Shown in pieces: positions 15,490-16,540 of a stretch of DNA of 55,270 bases. The DNA comes from an uncultured Chitinophagaceae bacterium (GTDB lineage Bacteria > Bacteroidota > Bacteroidia > Chitinophagales > Chitinophagaceae): the NCBI GenBank assembly GCA_937858715.1, contig CALLZY010000042.1, positions 1 to 55,270 on the forward strand. Direction: 5' to 3'. The notes under the pieces are model-generated. The model had not been told where the DNA came from. It worked only from the letters and a program-made list of their open reading frames with translations, and made no database searches. The position numbers and the translations under genes were made by a program. Each line of letters begins with the position of its first letter. Position 1 is the stretch's first letter.

Positions 15490-16368
15490 TTATATTTCGC
15501 TTTCGGTTACTTTTTGTTTGTATCTCTCTTGTATTTTCCGGCTCAGCGTATCATTCCATAGTGCCGGAAAAACTGTATCATCCAGGCTCTCCCAGCCGAT
15601 AACTTCAGCAGCAGTTCCACAGAAGAAAGCAGCCTCTGCGGCTTTTAATTCACTTGCAGAAACTGTTTTTTCTACAACCTGGATAGATAATTCAGTACAT
15701 ATTTCCAGTACAGTTTCTCTAGTAATTCCGGGCAAGATATTACCGGTGGCCGGTGTAAAAAGAGTGCCTCCTTTTTCATAAAACACATTGGCTCCGGGGC
15801 CTTCAGCAACAAACCCATTCATATCAGAAAGCAAGGCTTCATCAAATCCATTCGCTTTAGCCTCCTGGCTGGCGAGAATGGAGTTTACATAATGACCGCC
15901 AGCCTTGGCTGTAATTCTAAAACCTTTTGGATTGGGGCGCTGAAAAGAACTTGACATCACCCTTAATAACTTTTCTCCCAGAAATGGCTGCATTTCCCAC
16001 ACTTCAATTACAATAAAAGATTCTTTATTTTGAACGAAACTCATATTCGCCGGAGCATAGATTAATGGCCGGATATAAGCATCGCTGAGTTGATTTCTTT
16101 CTAACAACTCGTAGGTAATTGAAATCAGGTTTTCTGTTTCCCATTTATAGGGCATATTCAGTGCATCGGCAGATTGCTTAAGTCTGTCGTAATGTTCAGT
16201 GGCTTTAAATATCCTTGTGCTGCCGCTGCTCGTTTTATAAGAGCGAATACCTTCAAATACGGAATATCCATAGTGCAGGCTCTGGCTATAGAAATCCATC
16301 TTGGCATCTGCAGCTTTAATAAATCCGCCGTTAAGGTATAAGACTGTATGTTCGTTATAATATGCCAT
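15490..16368 (-). CDS. ilvE: Branched-chain amino acid aminotransferase
   Basis: 292 residues, fold-type IV PLP aminotransferase; moves the amino group of glutamate onto the three branched 2-oxo acids. Marks: the N-terminal LNGGFIKAADAKM, SLHYGYSVFEGIRSY, the PLP-lysine region ITAKAGGHYVNSILASQEAK, the phosphate-binding GFVAEGPGANVFY, and GITRETVLEI. First gene of the ilv run. Its ATG is only about 20 bp past the U-run of the terminator at 16381-16415, so its expression depends on readthrough of that hairpin; the upstream leader ORF explains how this can be set by Ile/Val supply. Confidence 0.95.
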   Translation of the reverse strand: MAYYNEHTVLYLNGGFIKAADAKMDFYSQSLHYGYSVFEGIRSYKTSSGSTRIFKATEHYDRLKQSADALNMPYKWETENLISITYELLERNQLSDAYIRPLIYAPANMSFVQNKESFIVIEVWEMQPFLGEKLLRVMSSSFQRPNPKGFRITAKAGGHYVNSILASQEAKANGFDEALLSDMNGFVAEGPGANVFYEKGGTLFTPATGNILPGITRETVLEICTELSIQVVEKTVSASELKAAEAAFFCGTAAEVIGWESLDDTVFPALWNDTLSRKIQERYKQKVTESEI

Positions 16369-16380
16369 TCATTTTTTTAA

Positions 16381-16415
16381 TTAAAAAGAAACCCGCCTTT
16401 TTTGGAGGCGGGTTG
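16381..16415 (-). terminator. Attenuator (terminator hairpin) in the ilvE leader
   Basis: On the minus strand AACCCGCC, a 9-nt loop and GGCGGGTT form an 8-bp perfect GC-rich stem (16414-16390), followed by TCTTTTT. It lies upstream of ilvE rather than behind a gene unit, about 27 nt past the leader-ORF stop. The 5' arm with its loop edge (CCGCCTCC, plus 16404-16411) can instead pair with GGAGGTGG of the leader ORF (plus 16449-16456): eight pairs, one a G.U. Confidence 0.85.
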
Positions 16416-16441
16416 CTGTATATTTTGATTTTTTAGTTTTA

Positions 16442-16540
16442 TCATGCACCACCTCCGTTTGAAGAAGATATAATAATCACCACCACAATAATAATTGCGG
16501 CAACAGAGGTAATGACATTATATGTACTATTCTTCAACAT
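16442..16540 (-). CDS. Ile/Val-rich leader peptide of the ilv operon
   Basis: Short ORF, 32 codons plus TGA, which I translated codon by codon from the ATG at 16540. It begins MLKNSTYNVITSVAA, residues 16-24 are three Ile, three Val, three Ile (codons ATT x3, GTG x3, ATT, ATT, ATA), and it ends SSSNGGGA. Nine control codons in a row, followed by a terminator and a competing antiterminator, is the layout of an amino-acid attenuator. The last codons (GGA GGT GG) are the antiterminator strand: a ribosome stalled on the Ile/Val codons leaves them free, while a ribosome that reaches TGA covers them and lets the terminator form. The peptide itself need have no other function. I know of no named counterpart in this phylum. 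Confidence 0.85.
   Translation of the reverse strand: MLKNSTYNVITSVAAIIIVVVIIISSSNGGGA

Follow-up and report, generated by a model that had tools for sequence, protein, structure and literature searches.

In Escherichia coli, the ilvXGMEDA operon (NC_000913) is preceded by ilvL, a leader of 32 codons with a Val/Ile run (there VVVIIIP), a preference for GTG and ATT codons, and a downstream terminator-like hairpin with a U-run. The ilv locus described here resembles it in these traits. Operon order and terminator differ, however, Shine-Dalgarno-led initiation is not expected in Bacteroidota, and the control runs of the family contain few Leu codons (19 of 414), unlike ilvL with its several. A search for peptide similarity to ilvL gave no alignment at E values up to 100, a weak test for sequences this short. 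In Actinobacteria, according to the text of PMC1262725, ilv genes also follow Ile/Val/Leu codon runs and terminators, but the ilvB runs extend into the terminator, and replacing codons of the Streptomyces coelicolor leader had no effect; the present leader has its run apart from the terminator, together with a conserved antiterminator.

Closer relatives have been described within the phylum. Leader-peptide attenuation was reported in 2021 before amino-acid operons of Flavobacterium psychrophilum, where the 5' elements before pheA and hisG are called conserved in the family; these regions share the phylum and the proposed mechanism with the present leader, but the text, supplements aside, contains neither an ilv leader nor an antiterminator analysis (PMC9723704). 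Bacteroid-trp RNA (RF01692) is also described as a cis-regulatory RNA of the phylum (text of PMC2864571), leader-like sORFs are mentioned in general terms in the text of a B. thetaiotaomicron map (PMC7366714), and Bacteroidia ribosomes are described as failing to use Shine-Dalgarno sequences (abstract of PMC9976891). A preliminary description of this DNA, made from its letters, knew of no named ilv leader in the phylum; this stands for Rfam, but with attenuation before amino-acid operons already reported (text of PMC9723704), the novelty of the present case is limited. We found no description of an ilv leader in Bacteroidota in the literature searched, supplements aside. Vitreschak et al. 2004 (FEMS Microbiol Lett) are reported to name Bacteroidetes/Chlorobi, in their abstract, among the groups with candidate attenuators.

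The window, the whole stretch of 55,270 nucleotides that was analysed, carries an ilv operon on its minus strand whose gene order E-D-B-N-C-A matches its Pfam domains, with leuB in front. The gap between leuB and ilvE is 314 nt long and contains the leader ORF and the terminator. The features are as follows.

16565-16558, minus strand: possible -7 box TATATTTA of a Bacteroidota-type promoter, a degenerate copy
16540-16442, minus strand: leader peptide ORF of 32 codons, MLKNSTYNVITSVAAIIIVVVIIISSSNGGGA, conserved in relatives, with its ATG at 16540 and its stop codon at 16444-16442
16514-16502, minus strand: region 1, predicted in the centroid fold to form an outer protector helix with region 2
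16501-16482, minus strand: predicted inner hairpin GCCGCAAU-UAUU-AUUGUGGU, overlapping the control codons
16495-16469, minus strand: control codons ATT ATT ATT GTG GTG GTG ATT ATT ATA (Ile3 Val3 Ile3)
16456-16449, minus strand: region 2, GGAGGTGG, putative 5' strand of the antiterminator, located where the leader ORF ends
16414-16382, minus strand: predicted intrinsic terminator, a 9-bp stem (16414-16390) and a U-rich tail to 16382
16411-16404, minus strand: region 3, CCGCCTCC, partner of region 2 (antiterminator) or region 4 (terminator)
16368-15490, minus strand: ilvE (Pfam PF01063), first gene of the operon proposed to be controlled
15473-13791, minus strand: ilvD (Pfam domains)
13723-11948, minus strand: ilvB (Pfam domains)
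11938-11339, minus strand: ilvN (Pfam domains)
11305-10247, minus strand: ilvC (Pfam domains)
10170-8884, minus strand: ilvA (Pfam domains)

Coordinates and translation of the leader ORF, with IIIVVVIII as residues 16-24, agree with the preliminary description, as do the ATG of ilvE at 16368 and the eight-base pairing between the end of the ORF and the 5' side of the terminator, which joins regions 2 and 3 by 8 bp, one of them U-G. What had been called an 8-bp GC terminator is indeed a terminator with a U-run, but its stem, in which 16414-16406 pairs with 16398-16390, has 9 bp, 6 of them G-C; this is the highest G-C pair count among the minus-strand terminator-like sites between 8000 and 23000. 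Twelve nucleotides separate the end of the control run from region 2. The window contains, in short, a small leader ORF whose codon run specifies products of the operon, a probable intrinsic terminator between that ORF and the first gene, and a predicted antiterminator that excludes the terminator and sits where a ribosome at the stop codon could cover it. A separate ORF of 22 codons (16445-16377) begins within the leader stop region and crosses the terminator, with GGAGG at a Shine-Dalgarno-like spacing before it; it is lost in some aligned relatives, such as L002.

From these parts and their conservation, we consider it very probable that ilvEDBNCA are under the control of a ribosome-mediated transcription attenuator of the trp/ilv type, and that the leader most likely switches the ilv genes on at Ile or Val shortage, much as in E. 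coli. RNA polymerase would start just upstream of the leader ORF. With charged Ile- and Val-tRNA in ample supply, the ribosome would reach the stop codon and cover GGAGGTGG, and the terminator would form before ilvE. With either charged tRNA scarce, it would stall within the nine-codon run and leave GGAGGTGG free to capture CCGCCTCC ahead of synthesis of the 3' arm of the terminator, so that transcription would continue. If the leader were left untranslated, upstream sequence would probably tie up region 2 and transcription would stop. Anatomy, conservation, linkage to the first ilv gene, covariation of the terminator and co-evolution of the antiterminator are what sequence comparison establishes for this attenuator; promoter use, stalling, termination and the response to amino acids are what we infer for the ilv leader.

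The preliminary description held that relatives without an Ile/Val-rich ORF and hairpin at this place would speak against attenuation; comparison with relatives supports it. An IlvE match at E ≤1e-60 occurs in 54 of 147 Chitinophagaceae genomes, and in the 53 loci examined (that of G047 is cut off) the leader precedes ilvE in 49 (30/30 in a first set and 19/23 further ones). Another 47 family genomes have ilvD without such an ilvE, and there the leader stands before ilvD in 32, 30 of these found by script (two of the 30, L156 and L178, being weak) and L149 and L179 by eye. Present before either gene, the leader is therefore tied to the first ilv gene and not to ilvE or leuB alone. Among named loci of a public collection, leader and terminator were found in 75 of 80 (70 by script after removal of the false L109, and L093, L097, L101, L102 and L106 by eye), with titles that name Chitinophagaceae, Chryseobacterium, Cyclobacteriaceae, Pedobacter, Pontibacter, Hymenobacter, Crocinitomicaceae and one MAG labelled Calditrichota. 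In that MAG (L105), a similar leader, MKKISLLLINIILVIIIT, and a terminator precede ilvE. Named and unnamed loci overlap in part (L002 and L033 share a leader), so these counts are not independent.

Elsewhere in the phylum, 20 of 60 stretches had, in the 1.6 kb before ilvD, a terminator and a leader in which 7 or more of 9 codons were I/V/L, compared to 0 of 60 on the opposite strand. The 60 were chosen by hand from 83 non-family genomes with an IlvD match, 43 of 44 with the nearer ilvD type and 17 of 39 with the most distant one; in the latter 0/17 pass, L266 having a weaker match (6 of 9). By these methods the leader is absent from 4/53 ilvE loci, 15/47 ilvD-first loci and 40/60 outside-family stretches, three of the 40 having a weaker 6-of-9 match. 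The terminator finder takes unbroken stems only and missed the E. coli ilvL terminator, and its loop limit apparently missed L093, L101, L102 and L106, so its negatives are conservative. L076 counts as negative because the contig ends at that point. For the analyses that follow, 110 ilvE loci gave 101 script-positives, 83 without near-identical copies and 82 distinct loci without the false positive L109, split into 46 of CCGCCTC type and 36 others; the boundary between family-type and other loci is drawn slightly differently in the synonymous-codon, leuB-gap and switch-fold analyses.

The position of leuB, directly upstream on the same strand, together with the U-run of the hairpin, brings up another reading, in which the hairpin only terminates leuCDB and the small ORF is there by chance. 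The leader, however, keeps its place before whichever ilv gene comes first, ilvE or ilvD, and is kept in 15 of 23 loci where no leuB end is seen upstream (by its C-terminal motif). The run is conserved as coding sequence, covariation links region 2 to the terminator arm, and in several loci outside the family a separate terminator, as read by eye, stands before the leader, all of which makes a mere leuCDB terminator highly improbable. The leader is found in 0/7 loci when leuB ends at most 60 nt before the ilv gene, and in 66/70 when the gap is larger, three of the four exceptions having gaps of 81-120 nt. The leader is thus missing where leu and ilv genes look joined in one unit, and its losses would fit fusion to the leu genes.

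The run itself shows a coding signal. Among the 414 run codons of the 46 distinct CCGCCTC-type leaders, 407 have T at the second position and 395 have A or G at the first; the residues are I in 214, V in 173, L in 19 and others in 8. Codon choice is skewed as well: ATT makes up 0.88 of Ile codons in the control runs versus 0.39 in the long ORFs of the same loci, and GTG 0.67 of Val codons versus 0.29 (the window's own long ORFs have 0.53 and 0.27). The same two preferences can be read in the sequence of E. coli ilvL (L219); the inner hairpin, slow decoding, or both may explain them. As the peptide is short and strongly hydrophobic, it might instead be a membrane peptide with a function of its own that lies before the ilv genes by happenstance. 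Leader length, N-terminus and the residues after the run nevertheless differ between families, only the I/V/L run and the G-rich codons of region 2 being kept, and such a peptide would leave the cognate His, Phe/Tyr and Trp runs before cognate genes, described below, unexplained; we hold this alternative to be as improbable as the leuCDB terminator.

Covariance, which the preliminary description had put forward as a check on attenuation, is found for the terminator and, between families, for the antiterminator. Two alignments were used: A1, with 45 of 48 listed sequences (L008, L016 and L078 omitted), and A2, with 77 sequences over the stretch from run to terminator (omitting ten named second-batch loci, the divergent loci of the first batch other than L015, near-duplicates, and any segment longer than 150 nt). 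The terminator is paired in 99.0% of 693 cells in A2, with 27 double changes and with none of 500 shuffles as good, and in 100% of 405 cells in A1. The antiterminator is paired in 92.5% of 616 cells in A2, compared to 50-71% when slid by one to three columns, and in 93.3% of 360 cells in A1; double changes amount to 2 cells in A2 and none in A1, this within-family covariation being slight because the strands are nearly invariant there. Between families both antiterminator strands change. When each of 19 hand-chosen representatives of several families paired its own region 2 with its own terminator arm, the summed energy was -290.7, versus -205.9 (sd 12.8) with permuted partners, and 0 of 20,000 permutations came as low. 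Against shuffled sequences, at most 5 of 100 shuffles reached the pairing of the locus itself in 46/46 CCGCCTC-type loci and in 31/36 of the others; in some single loci (such as L057, L082 and L083) the pairing was no better than swaps. On this evidence, antiterminator and terminator co-vary between families.

These data also bear on two readings in which the ribosome does not govern termination. Short ORFs before genes are common, and reinitiation from leader to gene has been proposed for Bacteroidetes among other groups (text of PMC4833913), so the leader ORF might act on translation, by reinitiation or by occlusion of the ilvE start. That is very unlikely, though less so than the two alternatives already weighed, given a covarying stem between ORF and gene (its U-rich tail present by search design) and a distance from terminator to gene of 7 to 230 nt (574 and 645 nt in two loci that may have another gene in between), which ill suits occlusion of a start site. 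The remaining reading, in which a metabolite-binding riboswitch or a T-box controls the terminator, accounts for a 5' region that contains one and is the least probable of all. No Rfam family matches the window at its gathering score; the best leader match is Thr_leader (RF00506), at 25.4 bits versus a cut-off of 55, and Trp_leader (RF00513) and Phe_leader (RF01859) reach 19.5 versus 41 and 18.8 versus 55. What is conserved, moreover, is codons and two pairing strands rather than an aptamer. Bacteroid-trp (RF01692) is presumably a trp leader, and both the window and the trp leader of its own genome score below the gathering score of that family.

The switch itself was examined by folding the RNA in successive states. 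With the window RNA free from 16458, as if a ribosome had stalled at the last control codon, and region 4 not yet made, it folds as the antiterminator. At full length the same RNA has a minimum energy of -19.1 kcal/mol as antiterminator versus -17.3 as terminator, while for RNAs that end at 16390 or 16386 the terminator state has the lower energy, and in the ensemble of the RNA that ends at the stem with region 2 free the terminator has 0.66 versus 0.24 for the antiterminator. The same states were computed for the 82 distinct loci and 47 of the 49 second-batch positives (L156 and L178 left out). While arm 4 is still missing, half or more of arm 3 is engaged in the antiterminator in 91/94 family-type and 34/35 other loci, compared to 589/1880 and 273/700 in controls with shuffled spacers. 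Once arm 4 is made, the terminator dominates in 87/94 and 32/35 with region 2 free, in 93/94 and 35/35 with a ribosome at the stop codon, and in 87/94 and 34/35 with the ribosome absent. Since exposure of region 2 does not usually keep the terminator from winning at full length, the switch has to be kinetic. Kinetic switching is accepted for classical attenuators.

All four classical attenuator parts can be drawn in the window sequence, and the protector step is the weak one, since the 1:2 helix is not conserved pair by pair and the minimum-energy fold of the window pairs region 2 elsewhere. Without a ribosome, the leader has a folding energy of -50.2 kcal/mol (z = -4.56 versus 200 shuffles). 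Besides the terminator, its centroid fold has a 13-bp helix of 16514-16502 with 16459-16447 and, within the control codons, an inner hairpin of 8 bp; in the minimum-energy fold region 2 pairs not with region 1 but with 16548-16541, just before the leader start. The ribosome-free ensemble gives region 2 pairing probabilities of 0.62 for region 1, 0.31 for the start region and 0.00 for region 3. This predicted masking of region 2 is absent from the preliminary description. Across relatives, the outer 1:2 helix is paired in 58% of cells versus 42-56% in slid registers, with no covariation found, and it is unsupported as a conserved element. In synonymous-codon tests on 49 leaders (45 of the family type plus L015, L016, L023 and L057), which are mutually related so that the counts are not independent, the excess was modest: the mean z was -1.12 for the fold of the whole ORF (p ≤0.05 in 16 leaders), -0.98 for the inner hairpin (10 leaders) and -0.62 for the outer duplex (9 leaders). 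Permutation of codons within each leader gave -0.80 for the inner hairpin (5/49 leaders). Hairpins that resemble it occur in many of the 49, in moderate excess over synonymous codons.

A promoter search with a Bacteroidota-type consensus found a -7 box about 25 nt before the leader start in 48/82 loci, where 15.8 were expected, and in 31/82, where 2.0 were expected, the box was accompanied by TTG 18-22 nt upstream. Bacteroidota-type promoters before the leaders are thus probable, and in the window, whose degenerate copy was not counted, TATATTTA is a possible -7 box of a likely promoter just upstream of the leader ORF, which the preliminary description does not mention.

The combination of leader and terminator is closely confined to this place. 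A scan of 2,177,788 bases on both strands (the window and the first 110 loci) gave 259 terminator-like sites. Of combinations that join a small ORF (8 or more of 9 codons I/V/L) to a terminator no more than 60 nt away, 89 lay before ilvE, and the one other in these 2.18 Mb was the same site in the window file. A covariance model built from A2 matched 85 of 147 family genomes at E 0.001, once in each, and 78 of the 85 matches adjoin ilvE or ilvD as their coordinates were compared by eye; the other seven lie in G004 (an ACT_5 gene), G014 (a Phe/Tyr leader), G047, G076, G099, G113 and G135. Two further candidates were rejected. A second ilv copy in the own genome came down to a match of the terminator pattern inside an apparent phosphoenolpyruvate carboxylase gene, as read by eye, and is put down to chance; before leuA (window 21330-21075) we saw no cognate run by eye, and no minus-strand terminator-like site is listed there.

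Other amino-acid genes have leaders of their own. In the genome of the window, MIRNLHTHHHFLLCQGRP, with His codons, and a terminator precede hisG (L213, on C61); MTTMNAYFGFYFYYFFFGKRPGMLLLKTN, with Phe/Tyr codons, and a terminator precede a prephenate dehydratase gene (L214, on C251); and MKQYNNNTWWWHTTLTGL, with Trp codons, and a terminator precede a chorismate-binding gene of trpE type (L218, on C10). Next to two homoserine dehydrogenase matches in this genome no leader was seen, L215 stopping short of the gene start. Among 22 further model matches, mostly weak (L184 and L192-L212), 19 have a cognate leader, with leaders and the genes behind them read by eye and Pfam consulted for L184 only; L208, L209 and L211 have none. 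The 19 comprise six His leaders before hisG, two Thr/Ile leaders before aspartokinase, one Phe/Tyr leader, and Ile/Val leaders before ilvA (two), ilvE (two) and genes like the AHAS small subunit (six, including L184).

That ribosome-mediated attenuation is the default control of amino-acid operons in much of Bacteroidia, for ilv, his, phe, trp and thr, is a tentative proposal to which we give a little less than an even chance. Attenuation appears to be in wide use in a phylum that lacks Shine-Dalgarno initiation, and this would imply coupled transcription and translation. Attenuation needs a ribosome close behind RNA polymerase, and its wide conservation therefore makes coupling in Bacteroidota directly testable. 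If our reading is true, the two processes are closely coupled in a phylum that does without Shine-Dalgarno pairing, and a Shine-Dalgarno-like GGAGG can be a structural antiterminator strand within an ORF, usable there because the anti-Shine-Dalgarno sequence is hidden. The bias towards ATT and GTG, as in E. coli ilvL, would then mark codons selected for stalling beyond amino-acid identity. The leader would also be a specific and conserved element of control over branched-chain amino-acid synthesis across a large phylum, one without an Rfam match.

Some of the further leaders come from well outside the family. The His-rich leaders before apparent hisG genes (L195, L201, L202, L204, L205 and L210) belong to other families of the class and phylum, and the Thr/Ile-rich leader that begins MTINNTTIITIITTG, before an aspartokinase-like gene (L206, L207), to another family of the class. 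Ahead of an apparent prephenate dehydratase gene in G014 (L203) stands a Phe/Tyr leader in which GGAGGCGG and CCGCCTCC resemble the ilv pair. In G004 an ilv-type leader (L184) precedes a stand-alone gene with an ACT_5 domain, half a megabase from ilvE, and ilvE itself lies 81 nt behind leuB.
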